Shown here piece after piece: positions 48,877 through 57,805 of a stretch of DNA of 64,000 nucleotides. The stretch's first letter is position 1, and each line of letters opens with the position of its first letter. Source of the stretch: Desulfomicrobium escambiense DSM 10707 (GTDB lineage: Bacteria > Desulfobacterota > Desulfovibrionia > Desulfovibrionales > Desulfomicrobiaceae); the NCBI RefSeq assembly GCF_000428825.1, contig NZ_AUAR01000001.1, positions 310,001-374,000 on the forward strand. The letters are read 5' to 3'. The position numbers and the translations under genes were made by a program. The notes beneath the pieces were generated by a model that was not told the DNA's origin, ran no database searches, and saw only the letters and a program-made list of their open reading frames with translations.

Positions 48877-48971
48877 GGCGGCTGGACATTTGGGGCCTCC
48901 TCCATTAAGCGCAATCTCTTGCCTTGACGCGCCCTCCGGGCCGCTCTCCATACCACCATAGGGATGCCACT

Positions 48972-49739
48972 ATGCTTCAGATCGAAAACCTGCATGTCAG
49001 TATCGGCGAACGGGAAGTCCTCAAGGGGATCAACCTGAACATCGACGAAGGCGAGACCTTCATCCTCTTCGGCCCCAACGGGTCCGGCAAGACCACGCTG
49101 CTCATGACCCTCATGGGCTTCTCCGGCTACACGGTCACGGCCGGCCGGATCGTCTTCAAGGGTACGGACATCACGGCCATGCCCACCTACGAGCGCGCGC
49201 GCCTGGGGATAGGCATGTCCTTCCAGCGTCCGCCGACCATCCACGGCCTCAAGACCCGGCACCTGGTCTCCATGTGCGCACGCGGGCGCGAGGTGGATGT
49301 GGACGCCATGGCCAAGACCGTCAACTTCACGGATTTTCTGGAGCGCGACATCAATTCGGGTTTCTCCGGCGGCGAGATCAAGCGTTCGGAACTGCTGCAG
49401 CTCATGGCCCAGAACCCGAGCCTCGTGCTCTTCGACGAGCCCGAGTCGGGTGTGGACCTCGAAAACATGGCCCTCATCGGCCACACGGCCCGGGCGCTGC
49501 TGGACGGCGCGGCCGAGCCCAAGCCGGACACCTGCATGCGCGACCTGCGCCGCAGCAACAAGACCTCGGGCCTGATCATCACCCACACGGGCTACATCCT
49601 CGACTACGTCAACGCCGACCGCGGCCAGGTCATGTACAACGGCGTGCTGTGCTGCGACACCCGGCCCACCCGGCCCCGCGACATTTTGGACCACATCAGC
49701 AAGTTCGGCTACAAGGAGTGCATCAGATGTCTGAACTGA
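48972..49739 (+). CDS. sufC: SufC-type ATPase of iron-sulfur cluster assembly
   Basis: 255-aa ABC ATPase. Walker A GPNGSGKTT, signature FSGGEIKRSELLQL and Walker B LVLFDEPESGVDLE are SufC-specific. The ATPase powers the SufBC scaffold. A GLK-like insertion (DGAAEPKPDTCMRDLRRSNK) before the H-loop ITHTGYILDYV is longer than in E. coli SufC. The last 13 bases overlap sufB. Confidence 0.92.
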   Translation: MLQIENLHVSIGEREVLKGINLNIDEGETFILFGPNGSGKTTLLMTLMGFSGYTVTAGRIVFKGTDITAMPTYERARLGIGMSFQRPPTIHGLKTRHLVSMCARGREVDVDAMAKTVNFTDFLERDINSGFSGGEIKRSELLQLMAQNPSLVLFDEPESGVDLENMALIGHTARALLDGAAEPKPDTCMRDLRRSNKTSGLIITHTGYILDYVNADRGQVMYNGVLCCDTRPTRPRDILDHISKFGYKECIRCLN

Positions 49740-50908
49740 ACCAAACCCTGGTCGATCTGAACTCCTACGCATTTTCCGGCCAGCAGAGCGCCGAACTGCC
49801 CGACCTGTCGACCCTGTCCGAGGACAGCAAGCGCGAACTGCGCATGGTCGGCGTGGACGTGGACGCCGAAGAGCAGCGCGCCGGCACCTTCCTGCAGTTC
49901 GACCACTCCACCGTGCACTGCAAGACGTCCGCCAAGGGCGTGGAGGTGCTGGGCATCCGCCAGGCCCTCAAGAAGTACGACGGCCTGCCCGAGTACTTCT
50001 GGAAGGCCATGGACCCCGACAAGGACGACTTCACCCGCGCCGCGGCCCGCGAGGAACTGCACGGCGGCTACTTCATCCGCACCGAAAAGGGCGCCAAGGT
50101 GGCCGAGCCGGTCCAGTCCTGCCTGTTCATCAAGGGACAGAACGTGGGCCAGAACGTGCACAACATCGTCGTGGTGGAGGAAGACTCCGAGGTCCACATC
50201 ATCACCGGCTGCGCCACATCCCACGACGTGACCTCGGCCCTGCACCTGGGCATCTCCGAGTTCTACATCAAGAAGGGCGGCAAGCTGACCTTCACCATGG
50301 TCCACAACTGGGGCGAGGACGTCATGGTCCGGCCCCGCACCGTGGGCATCGTCGAGGAACGCGGGGTGCTGCAGAACAACTACATCCTGCTGAAGAAGGT
50401 CAAGTCCGTACAGTCCTACCCGACCATCCACCTGAACGGCGAGGGCGCGGTGGCGCGATTCAACTCCGTCATCGTCACGCCCGAAGGGTCTCACGTGGAT
50501 ACGGGCAACCGCATCGTGCTGAACGCCCCGAACACGCGCGGCGAGATCATCTCGCGCACCATCACCACCGGCGGAACCATCGTGGCCCGCGGCGAGATCA
50601 TCGGCAACGACGTGCCGGCCCGCGGCCACCTGGAGTGCAAGGGACTCATCCTCGGCGGCGGCATCATCCACGCCATCCCCGAGCTGCAGGGCCGCGTGCC
50701 GGGCGTGGAGCTGTCTCACGAGGCGGCCGTGGGAAAGATCGCCCAGGAGGAGATCGAGTACCTCATGGCCCGAGGCCTGGACGAGGACGAAGCCACCTCG
50801 ACCATCGTGCGCGGGTTCCTGAACGTGGAGATCATGGGCCTGCCGCAGGAACTGCGGGAGTCCATCGACAGGACCATCGCCGAACTGGACGCCGGCGATG
50901 CCATGTAG
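49727..50908 (+). CDS. sufB: SufB-type iron-sulfur scaffold protein
   Basis: 393-aa SufB/SufD-family beta-helix protein with VVVEEDSEVHIITGCATSHD, GGKLTFTMVHNWGEDV and ELQGRVPGVELSHEAAVGKI. It is shorter than E. coli SufB (about 495). With SufC it forms the complete pair, and no sufA, D, S or E gene is adjacent. Such SufC-SufB pairs have been described as a minimal, ancestral SUF-like system in anaerobes and archaea. The overlap with sufC implies fixed stoichiometry. Confidence 0.9.
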   Translation: MSELNQTLVDLNSYAFSGQQSAELPDLSTLSEDSKRELRMVGVDVDAEEQRAGTFLQFDHSTVHCKTSAKGVEVLGIRQALKKYDGLPEYFWKAMDPDKDDFTRAAAREELHGGYFIRTEKGAKVAEPVQSCLFIKGQNVGQNVHNIVVVEEDSEVHIITGCATSHDVTSALHLGISEFYIKKGGKLTFTMVHNWGEDVMVRPRTVGIVEERGVLQNNYILLKKVKSVQSYPTIHLNGEGAVARFNSVIVTPEGSHVDTGNRIVLNAPNTRGEIISRTITTGGTIVARGEIIGNDVPARGHLECKGLILGGGIIHAIPELQGRVPGVELSHEAAVGKIAQEEIEYLMARGLDEDEATSTIVRGFLNVEIMGLPQELRESIDRTIAELDAGDAM

Positions 50909-51603: not shown

Positions 51604-54600
51604 TCAGCGCAGCTTCCTGCTTTTGGCCATCTCCTCCATGTCGCGCAGGTACCTGTCCGAACGGTCCAGGTAGAAGGCCAGGGCCTTGGAGAAGTGCTTG
51701 CCCACCAATCCGTCCACGAACATCTGGCTGATTTCCCGGTAGCGCTTGAGCACGTACTGGGAACGCAGGAAGATGAGCCACTCCTCCTTGCTCATGTCCC
51801 GGGAGACGATCTCCAAGGCCTTTGCCGCCCGCGGCTGGTAGAGCCAGAAATACATGCAGTCCAGGGCGTTGACGATGAGCACCTTTTCCAGGTCGCGGGC
51901 CTCGTAGGAGATGGTCTCGATGAACATCTTCGGAGACTCCAGCATGTCCAGCACGTCCTCCTCCGGGAAGAGCACGTCCAGGCGGGCGAAGGCGTCGTAC
52001 ATCCCGACCAGTTTGGCGCGATAGTCGGACAGCCTGGTGCGGACGTTGTTGTGGCGGTCGGCCAGACCCTCGATGATGGCCGCGACCACGTCCGAGGCCA
52101 GTTTCGACGTGATGGCCGCCCATTTCTGCAGCGCCTCCTCCACGCCGGGCAGCATGGCCATGTGCATGCCTCCGGCCAGCACCGAGTTGAAGAGCACGGC
52201 CAGCGGGATGGAAAGGATGCTGCGGAAGAAGTTGCCGATGACCGCGCTGCGCGGCAAGCCGCGGAAGATGTTGTGGCTTGAGATGTAGATGCCGTTGGCC
52301 AGGGCCATGACCGAGAAGAGCAGGATGGGGTCCGTGCTCGTGGTGATGCCGAAGGTCCGGTCCAGGAGGATGGTCTTCACCACCAGGTCCAGGAGCGGCA
52401 CGGAGAAGCCCGTGAAGAGCAAGGAGTCGGCGATGCGGCTCCAACTGATCAGCGAGTTCCATTGCACCAGGGGCGAGCGCTTGAGGCCGCCGCCGCCGAG
52501 CACGGCCTGCAGGACGTTGCGCACGCCCGTGATGCCGAACCAGATGAAGCCGCCCAGATACGCCAGCACCCACCAGTCCTTGGTCAGGGCGAAGGTCAGG
52601 AAGGCCGGGACAAAGCCCCCCAGGATCTTCAGCCCGTTCTTCAGGGCTGTGTTCATGTATTTGAAAGAGAGGGGCGCGGCCGTCTCACCGGTCTGCTCCG
52701 TCAGACGCAGGCCGTTGTCGTGTTCCAGCTGCACGCCGCCCAGGGTGACGATGTTGCCCGGCTGCTTGGGGTGGATGTCGATGCGGTCCAGGAACCATTC
52801 CTGGTTGACGCCGCACCCGACGCGTTCCAGGCCCGGGATCTTGCGTACCATCCGCAGCAGCGGGGTGTCGTCGGACAGGCAGTGGCAGCAGGTCCGCATG
52901 TGCATGGTCATCCGGGCCGTGACGGGCAGGAGCTTGCGCTGTCCGCCCTGGCTCAGGGCGATCTTCCGCGCCCGCGCGGGCAGGGTCTCCAGCACCACCA
53001 CGCCCATGCCGTAGAGGTGGCGGGACTGGCCCGTGGATCCGCTGCCGATGCGCGAACCCAGTGGTCGGGACTTGTAGTGACGGTGGAAGTTCTCGATGTC
53101 GAACAGGATGTCGAGCAGCTTGTCCTTGCGTGCGTCCATGTCCGCAAGCTCCGCCTGGACTTCCGCGACCCGTGACAGGTCGTTCCTGCCGCGCGCCAAG
53201 GAGAGCGTGTTGGACAGCACCAGCCTGTCCTCCTCGAAGGACCAGATCACGGCGCGGATGGCGCGCTTCAGGGCGATGACGTTGTCCTCGTTCAAGGCCT
53301 TCTGCAGTTCGGCGATCTGGGCGAAGGTTCGTTCCGGACTGATCAGGTCGACTGCGTCCCCAGGGCAGCCCTTCTGCCCGGTCGGGGCCAGGGACCATTT
53401 GCCGCGGGTCACGTCCTTGAGATTGTAGAGTTCGATGTTGCTGACGTGTCCCCGGCAATCGTAGAGAATTTCCAGGGCGTCCGCCGTGGACAGGTTGCTC
53501 AGGTTCAGGGTGAAGTGTGAGCTGGAATGAAATTTGGCCAGCCTGGGCAGCAGCTCTCCGATGTGCAGGCGCAGCAGGTGGGGCACGTCGCCGGAGTCCT
53601 GGGGCGCCGTGGGGTCGTGCAGCTCGGGATTGCGGCACGGCTGCAGATAGTTCGAAATGAGCAGGTCCGAGTCGATGGCGTTGAGGGCGTCGAGGCGTTT
53701 TTGCAGTTCGAGGCGGCGTTCGGGTCCGGCCTGGGCGTATTCCTTGGCCATGGCCCGTGCGGTGTCCTGCAATCTGGGCTGCAGTCCGCTCTGGATGTAT
53801 TTGGCCAGGTGCAGGAGCGAGGGCTGGCCCGTGCCGACGAAAGCCCGGAAGCCGACCGCGTCGAGCTCATCCAGGGTCAGGCCGTATTCCTCCCCCATGG
53901 CGGCGCGGTGGGTGCGGTTGTATGCCGCCAGGGCCTCGAAGACGTATTTCTGCTGATAGGCCGAGATCTGACGCCCTTCGTTCATGAAGGCTCGCACGGG
54001 CTGCTCTTCGAGAAAGGCCTGGAAGGACTTGGGGTCCGTATAGCTTTGCGGCTCCCAGATGACGCGCACGTACTTGCCGCGGAAGCGCGAGGTGACCTCG
54101 ATGCCGATGCGGATGTGCATGTCCAGGATGCGCCCCGCTTCCAGCAGTTCGCTCGCCACCTCGGCGTCTACGTAGTTGTAGTAGACCACGGTCAGGAAGC
54201 GGATGCCTTTGATCCAGGCGTCCATGACCAGGTGGGTCGGCGACTTCCGGCCCTTGGTGTTGGCGTCGTGCACGTGATGGTCGAAGGCCAGCTGGTTCCA
54301 TTCCTCGGGCATTTCCAGGAGGTGGTATTTCTCCAGGGCCGCCCGCACCACGCGCGGCTTGCCCGACGAGGCCATGCGGAAGTCGTGGGCCAGGCGCAGC
54401 TGGGCCCGCTCGTTGTCCTTGTGCCGGACCAGCTCCTTCATGATCTGCAGGAGAACGCGCGAGGTGTTTTTCTGCAGATAGAAGGTGTTCGAGAGCAGGA
54501 TTTCGTCCCTGAGGGCCCGCAGGGCGCTGATGCGGTCCGCCGCCTTGCCGCCCTCCAGGGAGCCCAGCAGGCTCGCGATGGCGTAGGCCACCCGCAGCAC

Positions 54601-54825
54601 GCCGGGTGCTGCCATCTCCTTGATGCCGTGGGGATGCATGCAGCTGTCGATCAGCGAGCGGACGCTGGCCCGTTCCGCGGAGCGGTGCAGGACGTCGTTG
54701 ACGATGCGCAGCAGCGTGGAATCGTTGGCGTCGAAAAAGAAACGTGAATTCGCCACGCGGGTTCTCGATTCGCCGGAGCGGCTAGGCCTGGTCGGCCGGG
54801 GTGCCGTTGCCCTGGCGCCGTTCAT
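51604..54825 (-). CDS. Very large unrecognised protein with PHP-like region and C-terminal membrane domain
   Basis: 1,073-aa open frame with normal codon use. The N-terminus (30-175) is helical. At 178-260 a PHP-phosphoesterase-like pattern occurs: FDHHVHDANTKGRKSPTHLV (H184, H186, D187), then IKGIRFLTVV and IRIGIEVTSRF (E243). The usual TDH motif is replaced by VYYN. Further alpha/beta sequence with CRGHVSNIELYNLK and CCHCLSDDTPLL precedes a membrane region of about four helices (roughly 745-900). A soluble helical tail follows. It starts inside the last 44 bases of the response-regulator gene; GTG 54756 is an alternative start. I do not recognise the whole protein. A receiver-controlled membrane enzyme is inference. 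Confidence 0.65.
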   Translation of the reverse strand: MNGARATAPRPTRPSRSGESRTRVANSRFFFDANDSTLLRIVNDVLHRSAERASVRSLIDSCMHPHGIKEMAAPGVLRVAYAIASLLGSLEGGKAADRISALRALRDEILLSNTFYLQKNTSRVLLQIMKELVRHKDNERAQLRLAHDFRMASSGKPRVVRAALEKYHLLEMPEEWNQLAFDHHVHDANTKGRKSPTHLVMDAWIKGIRFLTVVYYNYVDAEVASELLEAGRILDMHIRIGIEVTSRFRGKYVRVIWEPQSYTDPKSFQAFLEEQPVRAFMNEGRQISAYQQKYVFEALAAYNRTHRAAMGEEYGLTLDELDAVGFRAFVGTGQPSLLHLAKYIQSGLQPRLQDTARAMAKEYAQAGPERRLELQKRLDALNAIDSDLLISNYLQPCRNPELHDPTAPQDSGDVPHLLRLHIGELLPRLAKFHSSSHFTLNLSNLSTADALEILYDCRGHVSNIELYNLKDVTRGKWSLAPTGQKGCPGDAVDLISPERTFAQIAELQKALNEDNVIALKRAIRAVIWSFEEDRLVLSNTLSLARGRNDLSRVAEVQAELADMDARKDKLLDILFDIENFHRHYKSRPLGSRIGSGSTGQSRHLYGMGVVVLETLPARARKIALSQGGQRKLLPVTARMTMHMRTCCHCLSDDTPLLRMVRKIPGLERVGCGVNQEWFLDRIDIHPKQPGNIVTLGGVQLEHDNGLRLTEQTGETAAPLSFKYMNTALKNGLKILGGFVPAFLTFALTKDWWVLAYLGGFIWFGITGVRNVLQAVLGGGGLKRSPLVQWNSLISWSRIADSLLFTGFSVPLLDLVVKTILLDRTFGITTSTDPILLFSVMALANGIYISSHNIFRGLPRSAVIGNFFRSILSIPLAVLFNSVLAGGMHMAMLPGVEEALQKWAAITSKLASDVVAAIIEGLADRHNNVRTRLSDYRAKLVGMYDAFARLDVLFPEEDVLDMLESPKMFIETISYEARDLEKVLIVNALDCMYFWLYQPRAAKALEIVSRDMSKEEWLIFLRSQYVLKRYREISQMFVDGLVGKHFSKALAFYLDRSDRYLRDMEEMAKSRKLR

Positions 54826-55198
54826 TCAGGGATTTCTTCCGGTACGCATCCTCGAGCTTGTAGAGCAGGTCCTCAAGGTCCGCAGGCTTCATCAGGTAGT
54901 CGAAGGCCCCGCAGCCCATGCCTTGCATGGCCGCATCGATGCTGGCGTGTCCGGTCAGCATGATGACCTCGGTGGTGGGCCATTGCGCCTTGATGCGCTT
55001 CAAGACCTCGATCCCGTCCATGCCCGGCATCTTCACGTCCAGCACGACCACGTCCCGCGGTTCCTCGGCCAGCATGGCCAGGGCCTGTTCGCCCCTCGAT
55101 GCGCCCTGGGCCCTGATGCCCCGTTTGGACAGCCGCTTGATGATGGTGCGCAGGAAATCCTCCTCGTCGTCTACCAGCAGTACAGAAAATTCTTCCAT
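54782..55198 (-). CDS. Stand-alone response regulator receiver
   Basis: 138-aa receiver domain only. The acidic pair (VDDEED), phospho-acceptor D54 in VVLDVKMPGMDG, T in MLTGHAS and K in YLMKPADL are all present, so it should be phosphorylatable. A short charged tail replaces an output domain. AGGGAG precedes ATG 55198. It overlaps the start of the giant membrane protein gene, its probable partner. No kinase is adjacent. Confidence 0.88.
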   Translation of the reverse strand: MEEFSVLLVDDEEDFLRTIIKRLSKRGIRAQGASRGEQALAMLAEEPRDVVVLDVKMPGMDGIEVLKRIKAQWPTTEVIMLTGHASIDAAMQGMGCGAFDYLMKPADLEDLLYKLEDAYRKKSLNERRQGNGTPADQA

Positions 55199-55363
55199 TG
55201 GAGCTCCCTGAAATCGTTGATCGCTTTCCGGTCCACAGCTCTCATTCATAGCCTGAGAAGCCGCGGACAGGCAATGTCCTTCTTGGTACCCCGTAGCGCC
55301 TCTACCGCCTCATGCCCATGACAGGCCGCCTTGCCTCTGGTAGCCGGCGGGACGGAGGTTTGC

Positions 55364-57805
55364 ATGCGACAGGTCCCCGTCATCCCGCTGCCCTGGCAGC
55401 TCTGCCTGCTGGCCTATGTCTGCGGCCTTTTCGCTTGGGATTACCCGACGGCGGCAGGGCTGTCCTGCGTTCTGTGCGTTCTGGCCTTTGCCCGGCGCCG
55501 CGGGCTGGCAGCGGGCATGTGCGTCGCATTCGGCTTGGGCATGGCCCTGGCAATGCCCCCGGCCGGGGTCGGGCCGGCCGGCTGGAACGTCGAGGCGCGC
55601 GTGCGGGGCGTCGTGCGCGAGGTCCGGACCCACCCAGGCCGCCGCGTGACGATTGTCGCTTCGGATGTGGTCCGTGCGGACACGGGCGAGGCCCTGCCGG
55701 GACGGTTGGCCTGGACCTGGATCGACCCTCCGGCGATGCCCGATGCCGGACGGGAGTTCGAGGCCGGGCTGCGCATCCGCGAGCTGCGCGGACGGCATAA
55801 TTTCGGGCTGTCGAGCAACGAGGACTACTGGGCCCGGCAGGGCGTCCGGCACAGGGCCTTTTCGCGTGGGCGCGCGGACGTGCGCTGGGAGGATGGAGAC
55901 CGGCCCTTGAGGGCCAGGCTTCTGGATGCAGTGGCCAGGCATGTCCCCGCTGGACAGGGCGGGGCGGTTGTCCGGGCGCTGCTCTTCGGCGACAGGTTTG
56001 ACCTCGATCCGGCCTTCATGGACCGCATCCGGCGCGCCGGCCTGTCCCACAGCCTGGCGCTGTCCGGTATGCATCTGGCGCTGGTGGCGGGGCTCGGTTT
56101 CGTCCTGGCCAAGGGGGCCGCACGAGTCCGCCCCGGCCTGCTGCTCGTTGTTCCCCGCCAGAAGCTCGGGGTGCTCCTGTCCCTGCCCCTGGTCCTCGGG
56201 TACATGTGGCTGGGCGGCTTCACCCCGTCCCTGCTGCGCGCCGCGCTGATGCTTTCGACCCTGGCCCTGCATCTGCTGCGCGGGGCGCGGAACCACCCGC
56301 AGGACACCCTCTTTGCCGCCGTGGCGGTCCTCGTCGTCGCGGATCCGGCCATCGCGCGCGACGTGGGCCTGCAGCTCTCGGTGCTGGCCGTGACGGGCAT
56401 CGTCCTTTTCATGCCGCATTTTTCGAGACTGTTGGAGCCGTTGCGGCAAGGCGGCCGGGCAGGGCGTTGGGCATACGCCCTGCTGACCATGGCTGCGGTC
56501 ACGGTCTGCGCCAACCTTTTCATCCTGCCGGTCCAGGCCCTGTATTTCTTCGAGACGCCCGTGCATCTGTGGCTCAACCTCCTCTGGCTGCCCGTTCTCG
56601 GCATGGCGGTCCTGCCGTTGTCCTTTCTTGGGTTCTTCGCCGTCTTCGTTTCCGGGGAGGCGGCGCGGGCCTGTTTTTCATTGGCCGGTCTCGGGGTGGA
56701 CGCGCTGGACCGGGGCCTTGGCGCTCTGGACGCCGCGGGAATGCTGCGGGCCGCAGCCGTGTTGCGGCCCGAAGGGATCGAGGTGGTCGGCTACTGGGCC
56801 GTGCTGCTGGCGGCGGGCGCGATGCTGGGCGCGAAGCGGCCCGCACCGGGACCCATGGCCTTTCTCGGGCTCGGCCTGCTGCTTATGTCCGCGCCGTCCC
56901 TGCGCGATGCGACGGGCATGAGCGGCCCGGCTGTGGAGCTTACGGTGCTGGACACGGGTATGAGCCAGGCCGTCGGCATCCGCGGGCCATCGGGCCGGAT
57001 GGTGCTGGTGGACGGCGCCGGCGGGTGGAGCGCCGACTATGACCCGGGCCGGGCGCTCGTGGCGCCGGCCCTGGCCTGGGGCCGGCCGCCAAGGCTGGAC
57101 GTCGTGGTGCTGTCTCATGTGGACTCGGACCATTCCAGGGGCCTGATGTATGTCCTGGAGTCCTTCGATGTCGGGTGCTTCGCCTGGTCCGGCCTGCTGG
57201 ACCGCAGCGAGGACTCGCGGCGTCTGGAGCGGCTCATGTCGAGAAAACTGTGGCCGGCGCGGACGGTGCGCGCCGGGGACCGCATCGACATCGAGCCGGG
57301 ATTGTGGCTCGACGTCCTGTATCCGGCCGTCGGCGAACGGGGTCTGTCCGGAAACGAGACCTCCGTGGTGCTGCGGCTGGTGTGGCAGGGCCGGGGCCTG
57401 GCGTTGCTCCTTGGGGACGCGGAGCAGCGGGCCTTGGCCGGCGTCCTGCTTTCGGGCGCCGATCTCGCGTCCGAGGTCCTGGTCTTGCCGCACCACGGGT
57501 CCAGGTCGAGCCTGAAGCCCGGCCTGTACGACCGGGTCGGGGCGGCCTGGGCCGTAGCCGCCTGCGGTCCCGACAACCGCTTCGGGTTTCCCCATCCGGA
57601 GGTGGTGCAGGCCTGCGTGCGTGCCGGGAGCGCCGTCCTGACCACGGCCGACTGCGGCGCGGTGCGGTTCAGCTGGGAGGGGGACGGACCGGCGCAGGTG
57701 CGCTGCGCCCGGGCCGGTGCGGGCGGCGGCCCTGACGCATTGTGCCCGGCGCGCCTTTCCTGTATGCCCCCTCTCGAACAGCACAACCCAAGGAGCGGTC
57801 AATGA
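55364..57805 (+). CDS. comEC: ComEC/Rec2-family DNA uptake channel protein
   Basis: 813-aa membrane protein. An N-terminal OB-like periplasmic domain (about 70-170) is followed by the competence domain with many helices, including SHSLALSGMHLALVAGLGF and DVGLQLSVLAVTGIVLF. A C-terminal metallo-beta-lactamase domain (about 540-800) has the metal motif SHVDSDHSRG near 584, LLGDAEQ and LPHHGSRSS. It transports single-stranded DNA into the cytosol in transformable bacteria. No other competence genes are in view. CGGAGG precedes ATG 55364; the stop overlaps the next start by 4 nt. Confidence 0.9.
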   Translation: MRQVPVIPLPWQLCLLAYVCGLFAWDYPTAAGLSCVLCVLAFARRRGLAAGMCVAFGLGMALAMPPAGVGPAGWNVEARVRGVVREVRTHPGRRVTIVASDVVRADTGEALPGRLAWTWIDPPAMPDAGREFEAGLRIRELRGRHNFGLSSNEDYWARQGVRHRAFSRGRADVRWEDGDRPLRARLLDAVARHVPAGQGGAVVRALLFGDRFDLDPAFMDRIRRAGLSHSLALSGMHLALVAGLGFVLAKGAARVRPGLLLVVPRQKLGVLLSLPLVLGYMWLGGFTPSLLRAALMLSTLALHLLRGARNHPQDTLFAAVAVLVVADPAIARDVGLQLSVLAVTGIVLFMPHFSRLLEPLRQGGRAGRWAYALLTMAAVTVCANLFILPVQALYFFETPVHLWLNLLWLPVLGMAVLPLSFLGFFAVFVSGEAARACFSLAGLGVDALDRGLGALDAAGMLRAAAVLRPEGIEVVGYWAVLLAAGAMLGAKRPAPGPMAFLGLGLLLMSAPSLRDATGMSGPAVELTVLDTGMSQAVGIRGPSGRMVLVDGAGGWSADYDPGRALVAPALAWGRPPRLDVVVLSHVDSDHSRGLMYVLESFDVGCFAWSGLLDRSEDSRRLERLMSRKLWPARTVRAGDRIDIEPGLWLDVLYPAVGERGLSGNETSVVLRLVWQGRGLALLLGDAEQRALAGVLLSGADLASEVLVLPHHGSRSSLKPGLYDRVGAAWAVAACGPDNRFGFPHPEVVQACVRAGSAVLTTADCGAVRFSWEGDGPAQVRCARAGAGGGPDALCPARLSCMPPLEQHNPRSGQ

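Follow-up and report, generated by a model that had tools for sequence, protein, structure and literature searches.

A conserved membrane protein family of sulfate-reducing bacteria with a predicted PHP fold and an altered active site

Genes and features at the locus

The stretch of DNA considered here, referred to throughout as the window, comprises 64,000 nucleotides (nt) of Desulfomicrobium escambiense DSM 10707 (contig NZ_AUAR01000001.1 of assembly GCF_000428825.1, positions 310,001 to 374,000 of the forward strand), and our subject is a long gene on its minus strand, together with the gene for a stand-alone receiver which precedes it. The long gene encodes a membrane protein that belongs to a real, strongly conserved and unnamed family in sulfate-reducing bacteria and their relatives, and that almost certainly has a PHP fold with an altered active site. 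Both genes had been singled out in an earlier reading made from the letters of the window without database searches (the sequence-only reading).

The maximal open reading frame (ORF) of the long gene runs from 51604 to 54825 on the minus strand, downstream of the receiver gene on the same strand, and encodes 1,073 amino acids (aa); residues are numbered from its ATG at 54825 throughout. The frame described in the sequence-only reading is therefore present, but the protein itself is probably shorter. Codon 24 of the window ORF corresponds to a start codon in 8 of the 12 displayed loci (GTG in seven, ATG in L015), a GTG lies two codons past this position in L018, and alternative starts can be seen in L016, L017 and L020; extension upstream is blocked in L006, L007 and L008, whose frame closes a few codons before the codon-24 GTG. 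The comparison points to GTG 54756 as the likely true start, which would give a protein of 1,050 aa and leave a gap of 25 nt after the receiver stop. The 44-nt overlap of the two genes, from which the earlier reading had argued for a direct connection, rests on the first ATG, and as the starts aligned amongst relatives lie downstream of this codon the overlap is best regarded as a start-codon artefact. In G004 (L019 and L022) two overlapping frames take the place of the single long gene, which may be broken or misassembled in this genome.

The long gene and its parts are as follows.

51604 to 54756, minus strand: long membrane protein, 1,050 aa from the likely start GTG 54756 (homologues and start comparison)
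54328 to 54738, minus strand: N-terminal helical region, residues 30-166 (AlphaFold model)
52780 to 54294, minus strand: predicted PHP-fold barrel with helical inserts, residues 178-682 (VIA-align, Foldseek, and hhalign to the TrpH family)
54244 to 54282, minus strand: residues 182-194, D-H-H-V-H-D-A-N-T-K-G-R-K, with HxH kept, D187 and G192-R193-K194 invariant, and K191 at the position of the PHP gamma-site Asp
54097 to 54099, minus strand: E243, putative equivalent of Glu72 of RNase AM (profile alignment and row counts)
53038 to 53040, minus strand: G596, putative equivalent of Asp255 of RNase AM
52156 to 52650, minus strand: membrane domain, hydrophobic helices 726-890 (models and hydropathy)
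51607 to 52143, minus strand: C-terminal helical region, residues 895-1073 (models)

A widespread family without a name

Relatives of the long protein are present in all 16 genomes of the genus of the window and all 22 of its family, in 207 of the 247 genomes drawn from its class and in 45 of the 395 drawn from its phylum, whilst a distant member used as query found relatives in 106 of 192 genomes drawn from another class. Often there is one copy per genome, sometimes two or three. In GTDB contigs, 366 coding stretches were confirmed as relatives by a scan and 80 of these were kept, and homologous coding stretches in such numbers in public genomes rule out a chance ORF. Alignments were built solely from ORFs of 900-1,250 aa (990-1,120 aa for alignment A1) free of ambiguous residues; A1 (80 of 108 candidates) and A3 (128 of the 154 references listed) were thinned by similarity. 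Counts over 249 rows, as given below, leave out 12 of the 261 loci collected, and some of the rows are one genome represented twice.

The statement in the sequence-only reading that the protein could not be placed in a known family holds for the Pfam and NCBIfam libraries, but its fold can be identified. Nothing in Pfam (hmmscan) exceeded the cut-off for the long protein, the best row being TMEM126 (E 0.06), and nothing in NCBIfam did so either, the sub-threshold rows being RNase RNM (E 0.027, residues 181-278) and CehA/McbA (E 0.087, residues 180-250). PF02811 has four matches in the genome of the window itself, none of them at the long-gene locus. PDB sequences searched with the protein and with two alignments, one full and one C-terminal, gave nothing credible, and no description of the family turned up in the literature searches that were made. 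The family is thus widespread and under strong constraint, yet unnamed above cut-off in every library used, and if our reading of it is true it would offer a tangible way into a conserved function of sulfate-reducing bacteria. A role as a defence system was considered and dropped, as two members tested in PADLOC gave zero matches, and so was a mobile-element reading, there being zero plasmid matches and no relative encoded in any of 16 viral-contig pattern matches.

The PHP fold

An AlphaFold model based on an 80-row alignment (mean predicted local distance difference test score, pLDDT, 85.4; predicted template modelling score, pTM, 0.84) contains seven barrel strands, arranged as the distorted seven-stranded alpha/beta barrel characteristic of the PHP superfamily; the match to PF02811 above cut-off by which members are recognised from sequence is absent. 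When residues 178-682 of the model were compared with solved structures using VIA-align, the top matches were BAD_1165 (3e0f and 3o0f; Z 19.6, root mean square deviation (rmsd) 2.7 over 255-256 residues), RNase AM of Vibrio cholerae (9etk; Z 18.1, rmsd 3.7, 265 residues) and Cv1693 (2yb1; Z 18.0, rmsd 3.2, 261 residues), and Foldseek matched 3o0f with an E value of 4.3e-5. A profile of residues 165-700 also aligned by hhalign with a profile of TrpH proteins from the same order, made from all 30 fetched loci with that of the window genome included (E 2e-5, probability 77%, 138 columns); an earlier comparison with a single TrpH sequence had been much weaker (E 0.012, probability 3.7%). The assignment to the PHP fold, which the sequence-only reading had made from a residue pattern, is hence supported by structure prediction and, more weakly, by profile-profile alignment.

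The likeness to RNase AM/TrpH (YciV, RNase RNM) extends from the seven-stranded barrel with its helical insert to the HxH motif, the equivalent of Glu72 and, in most relatives of the long protein, a GSD-x-x-G motif with the same glycine spacing, G282 following D270 in TrpH proteins at the same distance as G608 follows D596 in the long protein. However, RNase AM/TrpH proteins have about 290 aa against about 1,050, the long protein having N-terminal and membrane domains in addition, and the solved chains of Cv1693 and BAD_1165, at 284-287 residues, are likewise too short to contain these extra domains. If this reading is true, the family puts a well-studied enzyme fold to a new use, in combination with a membrane domain that lacks a clear solved match.

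The active site

RNase AM holds three Mn ions, and according to the account of its metal site in PMC9410882 the alpha ion is bound by His13, Glu72 and Asp255, the beta ion by Glu72, His83 and His198, and the gamma ion by Asp20, His45 and His257. The window protein has the HxHD...E pattern that the sequence-only reading had pointed out (H184, H186, D187 and E243), and the TDH motif is altered as was stated there, its position reading VYYN. The alpha site, to which His11 of RNase AM presumably also contributes, is retained to differing degrees amongst the 249 rows: His184 is found in 235, His186 in 241, Glu243 in 229 and Asp596 in 166, with Gly in place of the last in 55 rows, that of the window included. 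The window protein thus has Gly at the equivalent of Asp255 and an incomplete set of alpha ligands, the full set (H184, H186, E243 and D596) occurring in 152 of the 249 rows. Counted as combinations of these four positions, there are 152 rows with HHED, 42 with HHEG, eight with HYEN or HYES and eight with HHLD, besides others. A change of His186 to Tyr is seen in copies L151, L153, L154, L155, L161, L162, L163 and L164, several of which come from genomes with two or more copies.

At the gamma site the change is more complete. The equivalents of Asp20, His45 and His257 are K191, Y216 and T598 in the window protein, and amongst the 249 rows the first is never Asp, the second is His once and the third is never His; as judged from the alignment, a gamma metal site of the RNase AM type is lost across the family. 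Neither His of the beta site (His83 and His198) is seen at the aligned positions of the window protein, in a region where the alignment is less sure. At the same time D182, D187, G192, R193, K194, D202, A203, K206, G207, E226, K520, M607 and G608, amongst others, are identical in all 249 rows, and a D-x4-GRK motif is therefore invariant. The combination of varying metal ligands with invariant residues that bind no metal suggests that the metal centre has been rebuilt and has not simply decayed.

These counts bear on two other views of the protein. The first is that it is an active single- or multi-metal nuclease or nucleotidase resembling RNase AM or Cv1693 which has moved to the membrane, and the position of both proteins amongst the closest folds, as well as the sub-threshold RNase RNM row, would be in keeping with this. 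However, no row has the equivalent of D20 or of H257, and that of D255 is Gly in the window, and as the mutations D20A, E72A and D255/H257A are described as disrupting the activity of RNase AM (PMC9410882), we consider a nuclease of this kind very improbable. The second, and the closest rival to the explanation preferred below, is a pseudoenzyme, in which the barrel has ceased to catalyse and acts instead as a sensor of a ligand, or as a scaffold, signalling to the membrane domain. Metal ligands which differ between relatives, alongside invariant residues outside the metal site, are what might be seen in such a protein, but a complete alpha-type ligand set in 152 rows would be surprising if the site were inactive, and on balance we hold the pseudoenzyme to be rather unlikely.

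The membrane domain

The C-terminal membrane domain claimed in the sequence-only reading is supported, nearly all relatives having a hydrophobic C-terminal part. Taking the best 19-residue window of each predicted helix, hydropathy is above 1.0 in 98-99% of the 249 rows for 726-748, 752-778, 795-824 and 859-889, in 82% for 895-952 and in 68% for 833-855. Structure prediction, which had been proposed as a check, placed the PHP barrel as described above, and residues 702-1073 modelled separately gave a structure (pLDDT 91.9) with no clear match amongst PDB structures (best Foldseek E 0.61; best Z 5.9, which is below the noise level of the tool). Weak structural rows for the membrane domain included RND-type proteins (NPC1, Patched and AcrB) at a Z of about 5, also below the noise level. 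A likeness of the C-terminal part to SpecificRecomb (PF10136) was left unsupported by hhalign, which was run against one member only and aligned 28 columns at E 0.18; nor was this family amongst the 25 of 41 families listed for 128 members.

The receiver gene

Upstream of the long gene lie the receiver gene and, divergent from it, a ComEC-like gene.

54782 to 55198, minus strand: stand-alone receiver, 138 aa from ATG 55198 (PF00072, 7.7e-31; longest ORF starts at 55249)
55331 to 57805, plus strand: ComEC-like gene (PF03772, 2.5e-51; longest ORF; in the same place in 23 of 27 receiver-bearing rows)

Relatives of the receiver align from the Met at 55198, which is therefore most likely its start. 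That it is a stand-alone receiver with an intact phosphorylation site, as the sequence-only reading maintained, is borne out: the phosphoacceptor Asp, acidic pair, Thr and Lys expected of PF00072 are all there, and the motifs DDE, LDVKMP, LTGH and MKP are identical in 27 aligned neighbouring rows, several of which are one genome twice.

The receiver immediately precedes the long gene in all 16 genomes of the genus of the window and in all three of a further genus (g4), and the two form a co-directional pair with short gaps in 19 of the 21 testable genomes of the family; it is absent upstream of the long gene in G016 and G018, whilst G017 was excluded from the count as the contig ends there. 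In the window the two genes are probably co-transcribed. A survey of whether homologues of the long protein always stand beside a receiver, which had been suggested as a further check, covered 261 loci in 151 clusters of the long protein (some loci being one genome twice), 244 of the loci having at least 600 nt upstream, and found co-directional pairing to be confined to the family of the window. No stand-alone co-directional receiver lay within 400 nt of the long gene at the loci examined outside this family, and the pair is not conserved across lineages. Co-directional proteins with a receiver domain do occur there, but all are larger (L134, a receiver-GGDEF protein; L079; L081/L173; L158; L241).

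The sequence-only reading had proposed that the receiver controls the membrane protein directly, that is, once phosphorylated it would bind the protein as the non-transcriptional output of a two-component system. The frequency of the pair within the family, its short gaps and the intact phosphorylation site would fit with this, as would two stand-alone receivers divergent from the long gene outside the family (L256, 4139-4525, at 226 nt; L137, 9331-9810, at 295 nt). However, the absence of co-directional pairs elsewhere, genes which do not overlap, and an orthologue of the receiver in G016 that sits away from the long gene all speak against it, and receivers are so common (eight genomes each have 16 to 33 matches at E 1e-15) that occasional neighbours are to be expected. 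Control of this kind is improbable, and receivers beside the long gene outside the family are tentatively read as chance or as separate clusters. With good confidence we reject a general receiver-controlled two-gene system, our confidence having been slightly lowered because of the divergent receivers at two outside loci; these, together with a convergent stand-alone receiver at L129, also outside the family, count against the rejection. Within Desulfomicrobium itself the receiver may nevertheless act directly on the long protein.

The receiver is probably a lineage-specific neighbour, left from a cluster of histidine kinase (HK), receiver and TauE genes, behind which the long gene came to stand. 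In G016, from a sister genus, the orthologue (70% identity) comes third amongst the receivers of an HK-RR-RR-RR-TauE cluster (RR, response regulator), which is divergent from ComEC and lies away from the long gene. This account is weakened by the four of 27 rows in which ComEC was not found beside the receiver (L015, L016, L019 and L044) and by G703 (L202 and L249), where ComEC adjoins the long gene without a receiver. Clusters in which a histidine kinase and a TauE/SafE exporter accompany two or three stand-alone receivers are seen at L297 (4946-9268), beside ComEC and with the orthologue of the receiver of the window amongst its genes, and elsewhere in the genome of the window (L299, 3670-8237), where there are two receivers. 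In gene content both resemble the "nitrate cluster" DVU0245-DVU0251 of D. vulgaris (DvH), which combines a receiver with a TauE-like protein and with a histidine kinase listed as a pseudogene in DvH, and which the main text of PMC4001038, where the word PHP is missing, ties to nitrate resistance of mutants.

Glycerophosphodiesterase neighbours and a proposed function

General clustering of the neighbours of the long gene revealed no partner common to most lineages, one large component mixing receivers with other two-component genes. A glycerophosphodiesterase gene adjoins the long gene at 12 loci, representing 10 distinct places and four of the 151 clusters, and is always co-directional and within 85 nt or overlapping; PF03009 was confirmed at all 10 places. 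In two clusters it lies upstream (L029-L034/L140 and L172/L185), an arrangement seen in six genomes that all belong to g18, a genus within the same order, as well as in L172, the most distant relative; in two others it lies downstream (L082/L094 and L089). The PF03009 family itself has only 27 match rows in 20 genomes, which were hand-picked and of which seven were already known to have such a neighbour, and simple arithmetic from these counts gives well under one cluster expected by chance, such that chance adjacency should be rare. The pairing requires three changes on a tree of 158 rows. Taken together this suggests a link with glycerophosphodiester or phospholipid-headgroup turnover, and should be treated as a lead.

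The best explanation overall, to which we give slightly less than an even chance, is that the long protein has the PHP fold, is anchored in the membrane, and combines a rebuilt site with a role involving a phosphorylated small molecule or lipid headgroup. It would derive from the TrpH/RNase AM/Cv1693 branch and be distinguished by a rebuilt active-site mouth, a new N-terminal region made of helices and an unassigned membrane domain, and its barrel, facing the cytoplasm at the inner membrane, would bind the phosphorylated ligand; R193 and K194 may hold the phosphate whilst H186 and D187, with at most one metal, act upon it, and the protein might in this way take part in the turnover of glycerophosphodiesters or phospholipid headgroups. 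A ligand-binding or catalytic role in phosphoester or lipid-headgroup metabolism is a tentative assignment. The more specific proposal, for a widespread family of sulfate-reducing and syntrophic bacteria in which the PHP barrel has turned into a membrane-bound catalyst or receptor that uses at most one metal and the D-x4-GRK motif, and acts on glycerophosphodiesters or lipid headgroups together with the new membrane domain, is unlikely as it stands.

Several observations weigh against this explanation. A complete alpha site is absent in 97 of the 249 rows, the window protein amongst them, and catalysis may therefore be lost altogether. The glycerophosphodiesterase family was singled out after the neighbours had been seen, and the remaining 147 clusters showed no such gene beside the long one, the flanks of some of them being short (for 129 of the 151 there is a locus flanked by 1,000 nt or more on each side). 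Moreover, the strongly supported branches of the tree alone force no more than one origin of the pairing, and some long branches are joined in it.

Other neighbouring genes

Genes resembling TrmL, DapF and LysR adjoin the long gene in a few clusters each, and were named by eye except for one sub-threshold DapF match. Certain members of the order have, upstream of the long gene, what may be a DapF-like gene (L036, 4760-5749; L143, 4509-5324; L144; L156), with PF01678 sub-threshold at L143 (E 0.0083), no PF01678 match at L036, and L144 and L156 assigned by eye. Single upstream neighbours include a PhoU-like DUF47 protein (L086, 4306-4962), a fructose-1,6-bisphosphatase (L096, 3937-4971) and a protein that by eye resembles a universal stress protein (L105, 2486-2941). 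In the window, a SufBD-type iron-sulfur assembly gene (PF01458) at 49274-50908 lies not far downstream of the long gene, and is overlapped and preceded by an ORF at 48924-49739 which by eye resembles an ABC ATPase.

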